From NCBI GenBank assembly GCA_004519485.1, contig CP038109.1, positions 62,001-126,000 of the forward strand: 64,000 nt of DNA. The letters run 5' to 3'. Below are positions 1,775-57,075 of this stretch, in pieces. Source of the stretch: Nannochloropsis oceanica (taxonomy: Eukaryota > Sar > Eustigmatophyceae > Eustigmatales > Monodopsidaceae). The notes under the pieces were generated by a model. The model saw only the letters and a list, made by a program, of their open reading frames with translations. It searched no databases and had not been told where the DNA came from. The translations under genes were made by a program, and so were the position numbers. The stretch's first letter is position 1; each line of letters opens with the position of its first letter.

Positions 1775-3433
1775 GCCCTTCGTGGCTGTATCTTGCCTGT
1801 CTTCGGGTGCCTGTTGGGTGCATGGTTGGGGGGTAGTGGCATGTAAGTCTCCTTTGGACGGGGATTTTGATGAAGCTATTTCCCATTAAAGAAGCGCCTG
1901 GCTGCGAAAGAAGCCGCAGTGGCCATGCCCTTGCCGGCATGCTGAGCTTGGCTTCTATCTCCCTCCATACCAAGGTCCCAAGAAGATAGACACGCATCTA
2001 TATGCGAGGCTGAGGCGTCTGTTTGTTGCAGTCGTCGCTTGTTGCTTATTGATAGCTCTCGTGGGCCCGGGACGGGAGAAAAAGAAAGACGGAAGATGAT
2101 AAGCGAGGCCATTGCAATACACACCATCGCAACATTGAGCGAAAGTAGTCTCATACAGGCACAAGAAGTGCCTGGAAAAATAGGAATGGGCATCATACAT
2201 GAGACAAGAGACAAGACCCGCTCCAGGTGGTCGCTTACTTGCTCGCTTATCCGCCCCATGTGAGCGACTCTTCCGAGCATTCCGCACTGCAGATTCTGCG
2301 TCATCAATTTCGCGCCTATTCCTTCCTCTGTTAGGGTTATCTGCAAACTCAATTCCATGAATTGTGTCCACTGAGGTGGGAGATGATAAGAAGGAGAGTG
2401 AAGGAGAGCGATGGAGGGGGTCTGGTCTGGCTGGCGCGACACACACAAAGAATGTCTCTAGTGCACACTCCTATTCGCTTTAAGCCGAGCCGGACAGTTT
2501 CTGCGGCTGGAGCTTCGGATAAATCATGATACATTAGTAGATGAAAGGATGGAGGAGGGAGGCCCGAAGTGAGGCCAGAATTAGAACTTGCCATGCATTC
2601 CTGGTGAGATAGGGTTGGGAGAGGCTTTCGCATGCCGGTGACTGAGCCTGGTAATCATCGTCATTTGCAGCGTTGCTTTCTTTTTCCCACGTAATTACCG
2701 AGGTCACCATATTTTCTGTCTACATGCTTTGCGGTAGGCATCTTACAATTTATGCTTCGCGTGTAGATCTCGCCCATGCCAAGGTGTAAACACTCTTTGA
2801 GCATGCAACGGGAGAGGGGGCTAATACCTACATAGAGGGCCAATGCGCACGAGCAACGCCGGCATTTTTCCCTTGATTTATTTCGGTGGTCTTGGTGCAT
2901 GGATGCAAGCGCCATGCCTCACTGCCGTTGTTGCTGGCTGCATGCAAGCAGATTACCCTCTGGGCATAAACTTAACCCCAACGACATCTCCAAAGGGCGC
3001 CCAGCCGCCAAAACGCAGAGCTACGCATTACAATGTTCAGTTTTTGCAGGACTGTATGTGGTTCATTGTGTGGACCCACGGAGATGCGTCACCAAAAAAA
3101 GGAAAAGATCCTGGCATGCAGCACGCAAAAGCTACACTTAAAGCGAACAGAGGAAAAGAAAAGCAAATATATGAAGTTTATAAGTACTCGAGACCCCCCC
3201 ACCCAAAAAGTTAATACTGAAGGCATCGGTTTTTTCCCATCAAATCTTCATTTTATAGTGCTTTGATATACTCGCATGGATTCTGCACTACATTCCATCA
3301 CCAACAGCAAAATCTTGTATATGATTCTAAAAGAAAGTCACCATCAGCAGCAATATACTAGGACCATAATGCGCCTAGATATCCGGTCGATTTCCGCACG
3401 CAATGAGGACACCATGGGCCTCATCTCTTTGGA
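1775..3433. other. Gene-poor interval, no supported gene
   Basis: This 1.66-kb stretch lies upstream of the zinc-cluster gene and should hold its promoter. Open frames exist on both strands (for example 1876-2448 minus), but two overlapping frames of the same strand are open at once, none resembles a known family, and no convincing splice pattern links them. It has no (GGGA)n arrays and is visibly less GC-rich from about 2450 on. I see nothing else I can name. Confidence 0.4.
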
Positions 3434-4828: not shown

Positions 4829-5244
4829 ACGGACTATACAGAAAGTTATGTAAGATTTTTGCTCTTTTTACTTTTTTGGGGTTTTAATCACCATTATGAG
4901 CCTTGTCACCGGCATAGTGACATCTCCTTCTATCATTTTTTGAGCACCAAAATAAGCCCACCCCGCATGACGGGGAAGCTGCCGGCATCAGTCCCACTCG
5001 TTGGCGCGGGATGACCGACAGCCAAAGGAGCGGCTTGTTTAGAGCGGGATGGCGTCATCGTCCCACTAAACGCCAGTGGCCTAATGCCGGCAGCTTCCCC
5101 GTCATGCGGGGTGGGCTTATTTTGGTGCTCAAAATATGGTAGAAGGAGATTTCACTATGCCGGTGACAAGGCTCATAATGGTGATTAAAACCCCAAAAAA
5201 GTAAAAAGAGCAAAAATCTTACATAACTTTCTGTATAGTCCGTT
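4829..5244. repeat. Foldback inverted repeat, 161-bp arms
   Basis: The left arm (4829-4989) and right arm (5083-5244) are reverse complements with only a few mismatches, both starting ACGGACTATACAGAAAG at their outer ends. The 93-bp spacer carries partly self-complementary GCGGGATG words. No transposase is encoded and no target duplication is obvious, so this may be a foldback/MITE-like DNA element or a hairpin RNA source. Confidence 0.85.
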
Positions 5245-5248
5245 CCTT

Positions 5249-5447
5249 TCAACCTCTTTCATGGCGCCGATACAGAGGAGGACTGGTCGTATAGTATCCA
5301 AAAGAACTCTCCTTCGAAAGTATTTAACATTCTAAAACTATCAAACTGGTGTCTGGATTTACCACCTCCGCCTAGTAGTGCATCTAGATACCGATGGTTT
5401 ACGTCTTCTCTCACTCTCAGCGCAGTCCTCCTTCTGAGCGCCACAAT
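5249..5447 (+). pseudogene. Short open frame with a hydrophobic segment, cut by the Harbinger insertion
   Basis: One plus-strand frame is open from about 5270 to the transposon boundary without an ATG, and includes a run like SSLTLSAVLLLSATIGG that could span a membrane. It sits between the foldback element and the transposon insertion point. If one copy of the AAT duplication and the transposon are removed, the frame meets a stop a few codons downstream. It may be a gene remnant or chance. Confidence 0.2.
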
Positions 5448-5793
5448 AGGGGGTGTGTTCAACTCCGCGCCCGTAAATAGCAGCCACTCTTAAATAATTA
5501 TTTAAGAGCTCTATTTAATTGTCGGCCCAGGTGTGTGTTCCACCGGCCGGATAAGCTCTAAAGAGAGAAGCACCCTTAAATAGCGAAAGCAAGTCTTGAA
5601 TAGTGATAGCAAGTCTATACATAGCCACAACAACTTTTGACAAGCACTAGCGCGACCCTGAAGTCAATTGTTAATGGTTTCATGTGCTTCTTGTCATTTA
5701 TATTTACCGGCAGATTTTTTTGGTAGCTGGGACGTGGCCTCCACAGGCCCATAGGCCCATAGAGGCTAATAATATTGAACTCTGGTACACCAT

Positions 5794-6604
5794 TTGAATG
5801 CTCACATACGAGGCTTTTATTCGCCGTACGATGCCATTCACGACTTCTTCTTCCCTCTCTCCTCACACAATCACAAACGCATACACAGCGTTGTCTTGAA
5901 GAAGTGTCTGCGAAGGCAGAGTGGGGCTGGTTTGCGCAACATGGACCAACACATGATGTATGTGGAATATGACAACAACCTCGTACTCTGCTTACTCTTC
6001 ATGCACATGTACGACATTGGCGGCAACCAGTTTCCCCGTACGTCTTGGAATCTCGATCCAAACCGCCCTCGTACATTGCCGCAGCTCTTCGAAGACTTTA
6101 CCGATGATTTATTCCTGAAAATGCACCGGTTTACCAAGGAACAGGTGTGGTACATGTTCCCCAGGCTCCGCATCGAAACAGTTATCGAGTTGGAAGGGTA
6201 AGCACTCATGGCCAATATTGACTATCTTCCACGTACTACTCTTCCCAATGGCTCACGCTGTGGTTCTTGACCCATAACTTTCTCTCCCGCTCTCCTACCA
6301 TTTACCTCATCACCCGCCTAACAACATGGACAGAATGCCAAAAATATGTGGAGGAATGGTCTTTGTGATGCTTCTTGGCCGCAATGCTCATCCTCACTCT
6401 GTAAGAGGGACGATGGAAAAATTGTACGGCTATGACCGAACACAAATTACGAAATGGACCAACTACATGCTAGAGTACGTGTTCGACCAATGGGCCTTCT
6501 TTTTGGACTTAAACGAGGAACGTTTGTCAAACAAGATGAAGTACGAGTACTGTGCATTGTTAGGCACGAAAGCAAACCCAGAGGATACGTCTGCCTGCAA
6601 ATCT
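5794..6604 (+). pseudogene. Truncated PIF/Harbinger transposase, N-terminal part
   Basis: Two exons are evident: about 5794-6197 and 6334-6604. They are joined across GAAGG/GTAAGC and GGACAG/AATGCC in phase. The product shows the layout of the N-terminal half of Harbinger transposases: an FLKMHRFTKEQVWYMFPRL segment, then VFVMLLGRNAHP, then a helix-turn-helix-like GYDRTQITKWTNYMLEYVF stretch. The first visible ATG is uncertain. The sequence breaks off just where family members read FIDGT at the start of the catalytic fold, and is followed by the inverted copy of the same exon. Confidence 0.75.
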
Positions 6605-6863
6605 GGGACTTACACGTTGACGCCATCAATGCAAAGATAAGATTTGCAGGCAGACGTATCCTCTGGGTTTGCTTTCGTGCCTAGCAATGCACGGTACTCG
6701 TTCATCTTGTTTGACAAACGTTCCTCGTTTAAGTCCAAAAGGAAGGCCCATTGGTCGAACACGTACTCTAGCATGTAGTTGGTCCATTTCGTAATTTGTG
6801 TTCGGTCATAGCCGTACAATTTTTCCATCGTCCCTCTTACAGAGTGAGGATGAGCATTGCGGC
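6378..6863. repeat. Palindromic duplication of transposase sequence (hairpin, 35-nt loop)
   Basis: Bases 6378-6604 recur in reverse complement at 6640-6863, separated by only 35 bp. The arms differ by one 3-bp indel (KYEY versus NEY in translation) and a few substitutions. On the minus strand the right arm reads a little further into the transposase (YLCIDGVN), so the inverted copy came from a longer transposase sequence. A transcript in either direction would fold into a duplex of about 225 bp. Confidence 0.9.
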
Positions 6864-7672
6864 TCGTTATATAGTAGTAGTAATATATATATTAGTAGAT
6901 CATTTTTTCCCGTTCCAGATCCAATGGAGGTGAGGACGTTTTTGTAAATCTTGTAAAAAAAAATTCTGTGCGTGTGTGGGTAAATTGGAAGAGGTTACCC
7001 ATTGCGTGATCTAGGGCGTGGGTTGATGGTAGGGTGGGCAGGCGGTTAAGGTGACTGACCTGTCGTCTTCCATCCGAACCATGAAAGTTTTGATGAAATT
7101 CCATTGGTCAGCCTGGGCCTTCGTTCTGACCTTGTGTGTGCTGGTGGTTGTGGGAACCCCCCCCCCTGGCCTGCGTGAGAAATGTATCTGCGGCAGACTT
7201 GGCTCCCTTCCGACTTAACGACGAGACCTTCCTCTTCTTTGCTTCTTTCCGCAATGCGTCCTCCATTGAGGCAGTGTTGGCTGGTATGACCCTGCACCCA
7301 TTCTCTACACTCAAACAGTCGTCCCCCGGGTCAGCCAAGGACTTTGGTCATTTTATTTTTATGGGTATGTCCACACCCACCCACATCACCACAAATCGGT
7401 TCATATGTGTTACTCTCTTGTGATCTGTGGCGTACCAGGCATTTGAAGGAAGGTGAAGCGACAAAAATGGTCGTTTTTCCTATTAAGGGCAATGTTGCTA
7501 TTTGATAGCTGGGAAGGAAGAGACCTTTAATACTAACGGTAGTATTTATGGCGCTGCCCTGCTCTTAAATAGGCAGCCCTTAAATGGAAGCGCCGAATTC
7601 GCTATTTAAGGGCTAAAGATCCTTAAATAGCCTATTTAAGGGGTTTGGGGAGAGTTGAACACACCCCCTAAT

Positions 7673-7972: not shown

Positions 7973-10900
7973 ATGGCCCTCCGGCCCGTGCTTCGAGTTC
8001 GGAACCGGGGGGAGAAAGGCAAAGGAGCGGGCGGCGGCAATGGGGCATGGAAGGAAAATGACAAGGTGCGTGTGCGTTGAAGGAGAAGTTGGAGGGGAGA
8101 CAGACCAGGATAAGTAAAGGGAGAGTCGTGTGAGTAGCAAAAGGAGAAGGACTAGGAGGAGGAGGACTGGACGTAGGACAATGCCGACGATAATGGCGAT
8201 TGATCACGCCGGGAGGCCACTCACTGCCCCTCTCACTCTCCCTCTCACCCTCCCATCATCGATTCTAGTTTCCGGTCGCCATCAGCCCGGACGGCTCCCT
8301 ACTCTGTGTCGCGACCGAAAAGCGGTCCCTCACTCTGTATCAGCTCGCCCTCGTCCCTCCCTCTTCCTCAACCCCGACCGCTGATATTCCTGCCTCGACG
8401 AACGGCAACGAAAGGAGAAGAAAAGGTACCAACGGACTGCAAGCCGCCGTTGACACTTCAGCAACAGCAGCAGCAGCACCACCACCACCACCACCAGCAA
8501 CAGTATTAGCAGGGACAGCAGCATGTGGGGAAGGAATTCGTGCGTTGGATTTCGCTAATGAGGAGGTCGAAGGGGTAGAGCCACCAGTAGAGGTGGTGAT
8601 AACGACGTTACGGGTAGGGGGCGAAAAAAGGGAGGGAAGGTTGGAAAAATGAAGGGTAAAGAGAAGAATCCTATGTCTGCATTTAATTCACACACAAAAA
8701 ACGGATGCACCTGGCTGATCCTTCTCCCTCCCTCCTTCCCTCCTTCCCACCCTCCCACCCTCCCTCCCCATATAGTTTCCATCATCCTCCCTCCTAGCCA
8801 TCGGCTTCTCCACTGGCCTCCTTCGTCTCCTCCGTGTCCCTTCTTTCGAAGAGCTTCAGTCCGTGCGCTTCTTCTCCTCCCCTCTTAAACAAATCCGCCT
8901 TTTCCCTCCTTCCCTCCCTCTCTCCAGCTACGACATTGACCTCTGGCTGCTCTTCTCCCATGAGCCCCTCCCTCCCTCAACGCCTCCCCCTTCCTCCTTT
9001 CCAATGGCTTCTGCCACATCTGCTATTGCTGTCGTGGTCCCCCTCTGCTGCTTGGCACCGGCAGGACAGGAGGTGGAGCCTTTGTCCTACACCAAGTACG
9101 TCTTCGGCGAAAGCGAAGACGTTGAGGATTTAATTCTCCATTCCCACCGATCAATGCTCCTCGATCTGGGGGGAGGGAAAGAAGGAGGAGAGGAGGGGAG
9201 GTTGGTGACGATGGGAAGGAAGCAGAGTCGGGCGGAGGGTGGGAGGGAGAGGGGGCAGCAGCAGCAGCAGCAGCAGCTGTACTACATGTTGACTTGCGGG
9301 AGGGGGCCAGCGCTAGGTTTCTACTCGTTGGGTGGTGGAGGTACGTTTCATTCCTCCCCCCTTCACTTCCTCCCTCTCTTCCTCCTTCCCTCCAATCTTT
9401 CCTCTTTTCCTCGCTCTCATTCACCGAGAGCGAGCGCCACAAGCTGACCCTTCCTCCCTCCCTCCCTCCCTCCCTCCCTGCGTCACCCAGGTGGTAATTA
9501 CCGCGGGCTAGCCGAGCTCGTCACGGCCGTTAGAAATCGAATCACGCGAGCCGTTGTGGGCACGGTAGGCTCCCTCCTGCCCTACGCATGGGGCTACTCC
9601 TACTTCTCCTCTTCCTCCCCCGCGACTAGCCTCCCGCCCTCGGACTCCCCGGTGTACGGATCCCGCAGCAGCAGCGGCGGCGGCGGTGGCAAAAACAAAA
9701 AGCCGTCGCAGGGAGGGAAGGAGGGAGGGAAAGAGAGGGGAGGGAAAGATTGGGATCCTTTTTCGCCGGCGGCGTTGTTACAGCAGCAGCAGCAGCAGCA
9801 GGGTGGGAAGGAGGGAGGGAGGGAGGGAGGGAGGGAGGGAGGGAGGGAGGAAGGGGGGCCAACACCCATCACGTTGAATCGGGACATAGATTTGAGGTGA
9901 GACAAGAGGAGAGACAGAGGGAGGGAGGGGAGGAGGACGAGGGACTCTCACCATCAGCATCCAAACCTCAACCACCATTACGACAGGGACAGACGGAGGC
10001 GATGTCTCTCTGCCTCCCTTGGCCCCAACGGCCGACTGGTGGCTGTAACGGATGCCTTGGGACGGGTGCTTGTCATCGATGTGCACACGCGGCAGGTTGG
10101 GAGGAAAGGAAGGAAAGAGGGAGGGAGGGCGGGAAGGAAAGAAGGAAGATTCAACAGGGAAAAGAATCCTCTTTTTTCCATTTCTAATTTGTTTCCACCC
10201 TATCCCCACTTTCCCTCCTCTCGCCCCCCCCCCCCCCCCTCCCTTCCGGCAGGTCCTTCGTCTCTTCAAAGGCCATCGCGGCGCACAAGTGGCCTGGCTA
10301 GAATCCTTGGAAGGGTGGCCCGGGCAAGAAAAAGGCGCCCCCATGCCCCGCTTCTTCCCCCGAGTCCTCCCCCCCGCCCTCGTCCTGGGCCTGTACTTGG
10401 TGATATATTCCCCGGCACGCGGGATGCTTGAGGTGTGGCGCATGCGACACGGGCCGTGCGTCAAGGTCTTCTCCGTCCCACCGGGGTTGCAGGTGATTAA
10501 GCCCGCCCTCCCTCCCTTCCTCCCTTTTCCCCTCCTTCCTTCTCCCTCTTCCTTTTCTCCCTTCCTGTCAGCACCTCAGACCACCATCTCACCCCTCCCT
10601 CCTTCCCTCCCTTCCTCCCCCCCTCCCGCCTTCCGACAGCTCGTCACCTCTTACGGCACCCGCTCCCATTCCACCTCCCCCCATCCCACCTCCTCTTCCT
10701 CCCCCTCGCCCTCCCTCCCCCCCTACCCCCTCACACGTCCCCTGCTCGTGCGTCACCGTCCGTCTGACGGGATGGTCACGGTCCGAGTGGTGGAATTGGG
10801 AGAGAAAGAAGTCCGCCCCCTCGTGGCCGTGCGTGCCCGTGGGAGTAAAGAGAGAGAAGACGCCCTTCTCCTACGGCAGATACGCCTACTTTTAGTCCGG

Positions 10901-11819
10901 GGGAGGGTGGGTACGGGGTGTGGCGGGGATGGGCGAGGGAGGGAGGGAGGGAGGAAGAGGGGGAGCGCGGTGGATCTGTTGAGCTTGATGCAGAGGATGC
11001 GCGATCCACGAGGTCTGTTCAAGGTGGTAGGGCTGATGGGCGGGGGAGGGAGGGAGGGAGGGAAGAGGGGGGGAGGAGGGGAGCGTCTTCCTCTGCATGT
11101 GCACAGGCAGGCAACTCTCCTCGCCTTGGACGCTTGTCAGGCCGCGCTGCAGCTGCAGCAGAAGGTGGAAAAGGAGACACGGAGGGATGGAAGGAAGGAG
11201 GGAGGGAGGGAGGGAGGGAGGGAGGGGAAGGCAACATTGGCTTGGATGGTGGAGACCTTGAAAAGGAGAGATCGTCTGTTGAGAGTCTATCAACTGGTGG
11301 TAGACATGACGCCCGAAGCCGTGATGGAGGGAGGGAAGGAGGGAAAAGGAGGGAGGGAGGGGGAGCAGGCATTTGCGTCGCTGACCTCTTCCACCTCCTT
11401 GCCCTCTCCCTTGCCCTCCTTTGCGAGGGAAGAGACTGCGTGGGCTTGGCTTTGCCCGGAGGGGGAGGGGGAGGAAAGGCTTCAGGACGTGCTGGTGGAC
11501 GAATACACGCACCCTCTCTCGGTTCCTGCTTTCCTGCGGGCTTGTCAGGAGGGAGGGACGGAGGACGAGGAGGAGGACGACGGGGCGGAAGAGAAGAGCG
11601 AAGGAGAATTCGGCGAGGTAAGGAAGAAGGGAAAGAAGAGGGATACTCTCCGACCTTTCCCTCCTCTGCTCGGCAGCAGCCACACGACTCGTTTGGAACA
11701 ACCACCCCGTCCGCACCAGGAGGAAGCAGCAGCAGCAACCGCAGCAACAGCAGCGACAGCAACAGCAGCAGCCGCAGCAACAGCAACAGCAACAGTTACA
11801 GCAACAGCACCAGCCGCTT

Positions 11820-11853
<34 letters not shown>

Positions 11854-14800
11854 GGCCAACGCACGAGCCGTCGCCCTGCGATTTGTTTTTCGCCCTTTAC
11901 TTCAAGACGTATTTGCTCTCCCTGCCATGGAGGAGGTTATCGCGTGCCTGGGCTGGTCGCCTCTGCAGTCCTTAGTGGCCTTCGGGGAATGGTATCTTTC
12001 CCTCCCCCCCACCCTCGCCGCCCGGCTGGCTGAGAAGGGAGCGGGGGAGGGAGGGGGGAAAGGAGGGGCAGGAGGGGCGTCGTTGTCGTCGCCTGTCGCG
12101 AGGTGGTTGGGGCAGAAGATTGAAGAAGGCCAAAAGGAGGGAGAGAGGGAGGGAGGGTTGAAAAAGGGCGCCTTGTCCCTCCATCGTCTTCGTGCAGAAG
12201 CCAAGGACGAGGAAGAGGACGAGGAGGAGGAGGAGGGAGGACGGACCCAAGCACGGACGGAGCGGTTGCTTGACCCTCTGCACGCAAGGTGTTTTCACAC
12301 CCATCGGCTGGAGCAAGCTTTCTCCCTGGCTGTCCTCCTTCGGCGCCTCCTCCTCCACCTCGCTCTCCTCCTCGAAGCTCGCTCCCTTGGCCGTTACCCT
12401 TCCCTGGATGCCGGACACCGTTGGCTGCGTCTGCAGGTGAGGCCACCTATACTCACGCCTCCTCCTCCGCCTCCTCCTCCTCCTTCGTCGTGATCAATTT
12501 TGTCTTGACCCTCTCCCATCACTCTTGCTTCCCTTCCTCCTTCCCTCTCTCTTACCCCTCCGTTCCTTGTCATGTGTGCGTGCATCGTCCCGGGGCTGCC
12601 GTCTTTGTTCCCTTTTCCTTGCATTTCCTCCCTCTCGTTCACCCTGATTACTCTCCAGGCCTACCATACACATCCTCCGCCACTCCCTCCCTCCTTCCTT
12701 CCTTCCCTCCCTCCTCCCCTCCCTTCCCCCTCCACAGCGACAGCTTCGTGTCTGCCTCCTCCTCGCCCACCGTCTTTCCCTCTCAGGTCCCGTGCACCGC
12801 GAGCCTCCATCAGCGTTAGATAGCGGCGATTCTTCTCTGTTCGGTCTGTTGGCATGGGAGGAATTGGAGCGAACAAGCTCCGCTGACGTATGCATTCAGA
12901 TGGAGCAGCAGTGTGCAGTCAAGCAGCAGCAGCAGCGACGACGTCGACAACAACAACAACAACAAGGAGTAGGAGGAGGAGATCGTCGTCTCCTCGGCGT
13001 GGAAGGAGGGAGGGAGGGAAGAGGGGAGGAATTTGAAGCGTGGGGTCCACAGGCGGATGAAAGGTGGTTGGAAATCATCGGAGTGCTCGTCAAGAGTAAG
13101 GTCGCCCTCCCCCCCTCCCGCCCTCCCCCCGTCCCCCCTCCCCTGCTCCTGCATTTCCCCTGGCACAACCAACCCCTGCCGTTGGCATGTCACCGCGCCT
13201 CCCTCCTCCTCTCCCTCTGGGCCGCTACGAACGAAGCCGACAAAACGCCGCATAAACTTCTGGCGGCGAGGGATCATCTCCACTCTGTCGCAGTCGCACA
13301 GCCTCGCCTTGCGGCAGCCGTTGCATTTGATTTGTGGACCCGTCTGCTCGCGCCTTGGCTGGCCCCCTACGTTTCGGAGGGAGGAGGGGAGGGAGGGGGA
13401 GAGGGGGGGAGGGCTCCTCCCCCTCTTCTTCTCTCCTCCCGGATGGCAGCCGAGTCTGTATTAGGGGGGATCCGATCTTTCCTTTTCTACATCCAGAAGG
13501 GTCTTGACCAAATTACCACCACCAACCGTGCCTCCTCCTCCTCCTCCTCCTCCTCCTCCTCCACCACCACCACGCTCTCTCGCCCCCCCCCATCCACCTC
13601 CCCTACCCTCCCTCTCTCCTCCTCCTCTTCTGCCCTCCTTCCCTACATCTCCGCTTTCCCCGACGGCCCGGACATTTGGCCTCCAATTCAAGATCGATAC
13701 TGTCTCGAGATCCTCTCCTCCTTCGAGCAGAACCCTCCCCTCCCTCCCGCCCTCCGTCGGCACCTCGCCCTCCTTCACGTCCTCACCCTCCATGCCGTTA
13801 CGGGCACCTGGGACGTTGCTCCTTCCGCCCTCTTCCCCCCCAACACCCCATTTTGCACTCGCGGGTCCCTGCATACACCCATCCCTCCCTCCTTTCCTCC
13901 CCTCCTCCCCCCCCTCGGGGTTTCCGGAAGGCAGCTGGACCAGGATAAAATGCTTGAGGAGGTGGAGGAGGAGAAGGAGAAGAAGAGGAGGGAGAAAGCG
14001 AGGAAAGCCTTGCTCTTGCGGGGCGTGCGAATGCTCGGGCGAGAGGCGAGTCAGGTAGGCAGGGAGGGTGCATCTCCTTTTCCCTTCCTTCCTCTCTTCC
14101 TCCCTCCCTCTCTCCCTCCCTCCCTACCCCCCTCCCTCCCTCCTATCCTCCCTCTCCCCCTCTCTTAACTTTCCTCCCTCCTTCCCTCCCTCCCTCCCTT
14201 CCACCTCTGTTAATGTCGCACGTGTTTTAAAATTTTCCCGCTCCCTCCGTTCCTCCCTCCTTCTCCTCTCTCCTTTCAGGCGATCTATGCTGCTGGACAA
14301 GCGCTCGACGTCCCCTCTGACTGGACCAGGACGGAACACGTGTTGCATTTGCTTAGGCAAGGCGATGATGTCCTGGCGGAAGACATGATGGTTCAGGTAG
14401 GGCGAAGGAGGGAGGGAGGGAAGGAGGAAAAGAGGGGATGGGCACGGGATGGGAATCGGAGACACGGGAAAGAAGGACGTACGTGTGTCATGGTGACGGG
14501 CTCGACCGCAGAACACAACGTATTCATCCACATGCCCTCCTTCCCTCCCTCCCTCCCTCCCTCCCTCCCTCCCTCCCTCCCAGGTCGAAGCATCCGACCT
14601 TCTGGCCACCCCAGTCCTGCAGCTCCTCCGTCGGCGCCTCGCCCGGACCCTCAACGGCCTAAGGTCTTCGGGAACCAAATCAGCCCAGGTACTCACTCCC
14701 TCCCTCCCTCCTCTCTGTATCCTTCCCTCCACTGTCTGATAATTTAACGCGCATTTCTGTTCTCAATCCCATGCTCCCTCCCTCCCTCTCTCCCTTCCTC

Positions 14801-55995: not shown

Positions 55996-56420
55996 CTTTG
56001 TGGGCTTTAACAGACAGGGAGGGAAAAGGAGAGAAGGTGAGAGAGGTTAGCGAAAGAAATGAAGAAAACAGTGTATCCTGTGCTACCCGGAACTGTACAT
56101 CCTGCGACCTCCGGAAGGGCGGAAGCACGAACTATCACACCAATGTGGAGGAGGGCCCGTTCTTCTCGCTCTATGGGACGGACCGAAATGTGCCTCTGGA
56201 CCTGATCCTGCGGGTGGACCAATCGCAGTACGCCAACCTGAAGGACTACACCTCCCGCCTTGCAGTCCACTGGCGGAAAGCGTGGACAGCAGCATGAGAG
56301 CAGAACCACCAGATACGGGAAGAGTGCTATCAACGTCAGAAGGCAGCCGCACCTTTTGGAATCACGACGGTCAAGGCCAATGCGCGAGTATACCATTACT
56401 CGGCTATAAACGCTACGCAT
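55996..56420 (+). mobile_element. Fossil Ty3/gypsy-like integrase fragment
   Basis: The plus strand from about 56050 to 56380 resembles the end of the integrase core and the following region of Ty3/gypsy LTR retrotransposons, including a phrase like the family's LYGRDP...PLDL segment. It is a short broken piece with no LTR in view, directly downstream of the ankyrin gene. It appears old. Confidence 0.6.
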
Positions 56421-57075
56421 ACTAAGGCATCAGTCGAACTTCGTGAGACCGAAAGTTGCAGCTGCCTTGTGTCAACGATATTTGTCCTCCGGAGTCCGTT
56501 GATTCTGTGCCCTCGATGTCGCCCATGCCTTTAACAACTGAACTGCAAGGCGAGAGATATAATCCGTGAGGTTGGTGTACAACGGTTGATCCGCTAGCAG
56601 GATCAGGTCCAGAGAAATTCGTAGAGCAAGGAAAACGGGCACTCATCCTTGCAGGTATAGAAGTTAACGTCGACGGCGATGCGAGCCACGTCAATGTACT
56701 CGTCCCATTGTCCTCGTAGCCTGTTTCCATGGCCATTTCTAGCACCTGCTGAAAAGAGGGGATGCTGTGGTCCACTTGCCCGGTAACCTCGTGCCGGTAC
56801 GGCTCCGTCATGCCCTTCTTCGCGCCAAATCCCTTGGCGAGATCCTTGACAGATCTGGCCACCAGAATCGACCCGTTGTCTGAAACATCCTACTGCGGCA
56901 CCCCGTAACTAGTGATGAGGGCTGTCTGCGCCTTAACTTCAACGTCTGCAGTCTCCACAGCACAAGGCCAAGCCTTCACAAAGAGAGTCATGTGATCCAC
57001 AGAGTGTCGAAATGAGGTACAAGCAAATAAATTGAGCTGAAATTTAGTATTAGAAAACAACAGGTATGCCACATT
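56421..57075 (-). mobile_element. Fossil Ty3/gypsy-like integrase fragment, opposite orientation
   Basis: The minus strand carries a recognisable integrase-core segment, including the SDNGS-type stretch and the YRHEVTGQVD-like segment. It is broken, with several disruptions, and truncated on both sides. It lies head-on against the plus-strand fragment at 55996-56420, so two partial copies or a rearranged one are present. No LTRs or target duplication are seen. Confidence 0.6.

Follow-up and report, generated by a model that had tools for sequence, protein, structure and literature searches.

The window analyzed here is a 64,000-bp stretch of the Nannochloropsis oceanica genome (C12:62001-126000 of a 29.26-Mb, 32-contig assembly). 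It contains a PIF/Harbinger-like element with an internal palindrome and the following features.

5447..7670, + strand: type A non-autonomous PIF/Harbinger-like element, 2,224 bp, with perfect 19-bp terminal inverted repeats, AAT on both sides and homologues on C2 and C22
5447..5465, + strand: left terminal inverted repeat, 19 bp, perfect
5447..5940, + strand: transposase 5' region (presumed promoter and leader), kept upstream of the hairpin; assigned by identity to the C30 and C6 copies
5941..6197, + strand: transposase exon 1, from the ATG to the predicted donor; open frame matching the L008/L009 gene, splice sites predicted
6334..6604, + strand: exon 2 up to the palindrome centre, including the forward arm; acceptor predicted
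6378..6604, + strand: forward arm, sense exon 2 (self-alignment, copy comparison)
6605..6639, - strand: loop, reverse complement of the exon 2 end, with the CIDGVNV codons and a predicted splice donor (copy comparison)
6640..6863, - strand: inverted arm, antisense exon 2 (self-alignment, copy comparison)
6864..7342, no strand assigned: remnant of the internal region present in the long copy L009 (93% identity over 6893-7336; convergent ORFs in L009)
7343..7670, no strand assigned: right-end region, 95-98% identical to other long copies
7652..7670, - strand: right terminal inverted repeat, 19 bp, perfect

Perfect 19-bp terminal repeats were also present in several other copies of the family. 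Read as AGGGGG...CCCCCT, the element in the window is flanked by AAT on each side, and exact 3-bp duplications, either AAT or ATT, were found at six of the eight loci where both ends were read, those of L007 and L013 being imperfect. The consensus target duplication of PIF/Harbinger elements is TWA, and AAT or ATT stands in its place at the six loci with exact duplications. The first-pass annotation had described a Harbinger element with intact termini; this holds for the termini, whereas the interior has suffered an internal deletion. Over element positions 1-931, identity to the C30 and C6 copies is 98%. The DNA that follows the inverted arm matches the internal region of L009, and a foreign origin was therefore rejected for it.

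The palindrome consists of a 227-nt forward arm and a 224-nt inverted arm around a 35-nt loop. Arm alignment (221 identities over 224 positions, three mismatches and one 3-nt gap) and RNA folding confirmed the near-perfect hairpin that had been noticed initially. Its predicted folding energy was -447 kcal/mol compared to a mean of -131 kcal/mol for shuffled sequences (z -52; none of 100 shuffles was as good), and the matching 486-nt stretches of the non-palindromic copies L008 and L009 folded with -126 and -129 kcal/mol. The arms represent transposase exon 2, and the match of a relative's predicted product to DDE_Tnp_4 supports the initial identification as transposase. The loop has the length given before but does not consist of unrelated DNA: it corresponds, as reverse complement, to what lies 3' of the arm in non-palindromic copies and holds the inverted end of exon 2, with a predicted GTAAGT donor and a CIDGVNV stretch which we take, from the motif, to carry the first catalytic Asp.

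Among the 25 longest of the 1125 inverted pairs in the whole window there was one other long, near-perfect and close pair, at 4829-5243. This fold-back element of about 415 bp has arms of 166 bp that are 97% complementary and an 83-nt centre. It is common genome-wide, with at least 118 matching pieces from 40 scored of 216 candidates, and matches also lie close to L009 and L010.

Family copies and origins of the palindromes

Nine long close copies were compared, namely the one in the window and L006 to L013, and five of these carry a palindrome. Type A is present in the window, in L006 (C2) and in L007 (C22), type B in L012 (C14) and L013 (C24); L008 (C30), L009 (C6), L010 (C1) and L011 (C4) have none. 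Two of the four long non-palindromic copies, L008 and L009, retain a 395-codon frame that is open across three exons with predicted splicing, and these are possible targets. In L010 and L011 the frame is truncated. The predicted 395-aa product of L008 matched DDE_Tnp_4 (PF13359, E 1.4e-13) and DDE_Tnp_1 (PF01609, E 4.1e-7), both above the respective Pfam cut-offs; these were the only domains called in the full transposase, whose N-terminal part gave no DNA-binding domain in Pfam. L009 is about 1.7 kb longer than L008 at one place, where the extra stretch has convergent ORFs; L008 may be a deletion derivative of L009, or L009 may carry an insertion. The second gene of PIF/Harbinger elements is a Myb/SANT-like ORF1. 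Two fragments of the second, convergent ORFs (L009/L008) were scanned and gave no Pfam match. Two arrangements of family ends were also seen. At L006 2754-6150 there is a head-to-tail pair of a type A copy and a shorter one with an internal deletion; they have one ATT in common, as if the second had inserted at the target duplication of the first. At L011 2912-2954 two family left ends face each other with 5 bp between them.

In L008 coordinates, in which exon 2 spans 888-1181, type A reads 1-1155 forward, 1190-932 inverted, then the internal stretch of L009 and then 3038-3366, with both arms within exon 2. The inner and outer junctions are common to all three copies, and no match between their flanks was found within 1,500 bp on each side. 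Because the junctions are the same and the flanks do not match, the sequences indicate that the type A palindrome arose once and then moved, the three loci being those found. The three sets of flanks, together with the diverged arms, also led us to reject an assembly artefact, which the first-pass annotation had named as a refutation. A chimaeric read from assembly or library preparation can produce such a structure, palindromic chimaeras being a known class of artefact. The same junctions occur, however, on three contigs with different flanks, and the arms differ by 3, 2 and 5 of 224 positions in the three copies, private changes included; we consider the probability of this explanation practically negligible.

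Type B runs forward to 1117, continues inverted from 1078 to 952 and resumes at 2207 (L008 coordinates), giving a stem of about 127 bp and a loop of 39 nt, with 2 nt of microhomology at the switch as read from the sequences. At 14 of the 15 sites that separate the lineages, L013, the only type B copy used in this site test, has the state of the non-palindromic group. A common origin of the two types was rejected on these states and on the different junctions, and on this evidence types A and B are independent. Since the loops measure 35 and 39 nt and there is little microhomology, fold-back template switching is suggested as their source.

With respect to relative age, pairs of type A copies show 10, 16 and 18 differences over positions 1-931, and type A copies show 21-29 to the non-palindromic ones, whereas L008 and L009 differ at one position. 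The single difference between L008 and L009, compared to 10-18 within type A, implies that the family moved after type A had arisen. Over whole elements, the type B pair differs by 21 substitutions and type A pairs by 41-45, and the smaller number argues for a younger type B. Opposite arms of different type A copies show 4-7 differences, more on average than the arms within a copy. Three private changes occur on both arms (one in L006, one in the window copy, one in both of these) and about ten on one arm only; in a rough simulation with 17 changes, at least three shared by both arms occurred at 5e-6. This points to inter-arm conversion in type A. The both-arm changes were accordingly not accepted as a sign of selection for stem pairing, for which they are no evidence once conversion explains them.

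Inverted transposase segments were found in 8 of the 29 family loci that were compared with themselves, a set that includes short stubs and comes from genome searches in which only the best candidates were scored. Besides three loci of type A and two of type B there were three others. Type C (C20:314034-314401) is a diverged copy with a fold-back of about 370 bp, arms 78% alike, composed of two left ends and the exon 2 segment 950-1023 in the layout of Mu killer. In type D (C6), part of exon 1 and its leader is repeated in inverted orientation (69% alike), and type E, a diverged relative on C10, has an inverted exon 2 segment of 81 bp, 97.5% alike, at a distance of about 470 bp. Types D and E could result from nesting or separate insertions. 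L072 contains a self-inverted stretch (71%) outside the family match.

Four of the five types, A, B, C and E, thus involve exon 2; type D, in exon 1, runs contrary to the pattern. With random placement within the transposase gene, at least four of five fall inside exon 2 with p 0.001 and overlap it with p 0.04; over a 5,070-bp element the values are 5e-6 and 0.0003. The clustering is above chance, but it was assessed post hoc and the search had started from an exon 2 arm, so that it is only suggestive. The inverted-repeat background was assessed in 178,784 bases that were chosen rather than random (pairs of at least 60 bp, at least 80% alike, within 1 kb). Besides the palindromes of types A and B, it contained the fold-back repeat (window and L010), the facing left ends of L011, an inverted repeat at L012 and a pair at 56 kb of the window. 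The last consists of 76-bp repeats at 56194-56269 and 56539-56614, 80% alike and about 270 nt apart. The L012 repeat (5180-5519 and 5836-6175; C14, close to the contig start) measures 340 bp with 98% identity, adjoins the type B copy, has no transposon match and has one more match on C17 (85%). Since it is unrelated to the transposon, inverted repeats are evidently made elsewhere in the genome, too.

Transcription, RNAi genes and matching targets

It had been proposed that the RAB3GAP2 gene, with its start about 300 bp from the insertion, could supply transcription. The RAB3GAP2 domain match falls in the ORF at 10052-12490 on the + strand and includes just the last part of the profile; it does not place a start about 300 bp from the insertion. 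Being on the + strand and downstream, the gene is read away from the element and does not qualify as a source of sense transcription; read-through was therefore rejected on orientation. Antisense transcription from the RAB3GAP2 promoter region may occur. The gene would not be needed, because the transposase's own 5' region, with the presumed promoter, is kept upstream of the hairpin. All five type A and B copies retain this 5' region in sense orientation, L012 with 241 bp missing internally.

The silencing idea had been made conditional on Dicer and Argonaute. Domain matches indicate that the genome encodes Piwi (C14, split over five pieces), double RNase III (both domains in a single ORF on C7, where the scan covered 768 of the 1,883 residues of the open frame) and RdRP (C16) proteins. 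Beside the open RdRP gene, at C16:595627-596797, lies a second RdRP-like stretch with four TAG codons in one piece, perhaps a decayed duplicate or a gene with unrecognised introns. A light-harvesting protein encoded on C2 matches PDB 8zo9 chain 2, named VCPI-2, at 223 of 223 residues, and violaxanthin-chlorophyll proteins of this kind are indicative of Nannochloropsis. The accessible parts of two reports describe core RNAi genes and lowered target expression by hairpin constructs in N. salina (PMC12133928), and a hairpin vector and RNAi lines in N. gaditana (PMC11477109). We infer that a transcript of type A or B elements should be diced.

The arms in the window share 85 of 207 and 92 of 204 21-mers perfectly with L008, and across type A 78-106 of the 204-207 21-mers per arm (38-52%) match L008 or L009 perfectly. 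Over 127 positions, neither of the two type B inverted arms differs from L008 or L009, and 107 of 107 21-mers match the open copies perfectly.

Interpretation and comparison with known systems

Taken together, we favor with moderate confidence the reading that the palindromic elements are template-switch derivatives which are still mobile and probably feed RNAi when transcribed. A fold-back template switch would have happened in a PIF/Harbinger-like copy, most likely during repair synthesis: synthesis would have proceeded to near the end of exon 2, jumped to the other strand, run back for about 260 nt and resumed further downstream, with loss of the catalytic exon. Having both ends, the derivative could have been moved in trans by relatives to the three loci found. 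Transcription from the transposase 5' region would then yield a hairpin RNA of roughly 224 bp, which Dicer would cut into small RNAs matching exon 2 of the open copies, so that the family would be damped in trans. That the hairpin recurs as a by-product and silences as a side effect is more probable than selection for silencing. Complete family-wide silencing by the hairpin in the window is unlikely, because the family was active after the type A palindrome arose; the spread of hairpin elements itself needed active transposase and counts against strong silencing, as does the drift of the type A arms, in which perfect matches to L008 or L009 are down to 38-52% of 21-mers.

The palindromes might also be inert by-products of template switching during gap repair, kept because their ends can be mobilized and too little transcribed, or not diced at all. 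A mutational process would be expected to produce such structures repeatedly and independently, and both the activity of the family after the origin of type A and the inverted repeat in unrelated sequence beside a type B copy fit this explanation. It accounts less well for the 5' gene region kept in the five type A and B copies, even with the 241-bp loss in L012, for the clustering in exon 2 beyond random placement, as judged after the fact, and for a genome with RNAi genes in a genus in which, according to the available portions of two reports, hairpin constructs are effective (PMC12133928, PMC11477109). We regard it as a real possibility, though one we would adopt only tentatively. The most far-reaching interpretation is a self-propagating RNAi brake that evolves again and again, in which exon 2 hairpins recur and spread under the parental 5' region. 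The apparently younger age of type B and the perfect match of its inverted arms to open copies would agree with this, yet we consider it unlikely. A quite improbable explanation is that the truncated gene encodes the N-terminal part of the transposase, which lacks the catalytic residues and blocks the full protein, in the way the KP element represses P elements. In the window copy, both type B copies and L006 the frame is indeed open through exon 1 and through exon 2 as far as the hairpin; however, L007 has a TGA within the forward arm, so long a stem in a coding RNA should impede translation, and the N-terminal part has no DNA-binding domain called by Pfam.

Silencing of a transposon family by an inverted copy of itself is best known from maize, where it is due to a single locus, Mu killer. 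Excerpts of one report describe it as an internally deleted MuDR derivative with an inverted duplication of the transposase gene and tie effective silencing to short antisense transcripts, not to the read-through hairpin (PMC3440606). The likeness to Mu killer, drawn at the outset, holds for the deleted inverted-duplication architecture of a DNA transposon and for family members as possible targets, to the extent that these excerpts cover them (PMC3440606), but not for the ends: Mu killer has two same-side ends, whereas types A and B combine a left with a right end and moved to several loci, the two-left-end layout being confined to the diverged C20 copy. The arms are also shorter, 224 or 127 bp compared to about 1.3 kb, and two independent origins of these putative silencers among close copies stand against a single locus. 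With PIF/Harbinger elements and their MITEs the family shares DDE_Tnp_4, terminal inverted repeats, 3-bp duplications, deleted non-autonomous copies and convergent ORFs that may represent the second gene; it differs in AAT/ATT instead of TWA, in the two scanned fragments of these ORFs, which gave no Pfam match, and in the palindrome of an internal coding exon. Some fold-back MITEs make small RNAs, and like these the present elements have a long near-perfect stem on a mobile unit. MITE stems are built from element ends, however, whereas the type A and B stem is an internal coding exon, and therefore any small RNAs from it would match transposase mRNA.

No report recognised as describing this element was found in the literature on Nannochloropsis RNAi, on small RNAs and Harbinger elements, on transposase hairpins or on gap repair. 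What is new here is the recurrence and mobility of transposase hairpins. The silencer reading appears plausible and, by the sequence evidence, better founded than the first-pass annotation could know. At least two independent mobile hairpin derivatives, open targets and predicted RNAi genes occur together in one 29-Mb genome of a unicellular alga, and the onset of silencing of a transposon family becomes testable in a small alga. If the palindromes were indeed a recurring brake, each burst of the family would breed the hairpin that damps it.
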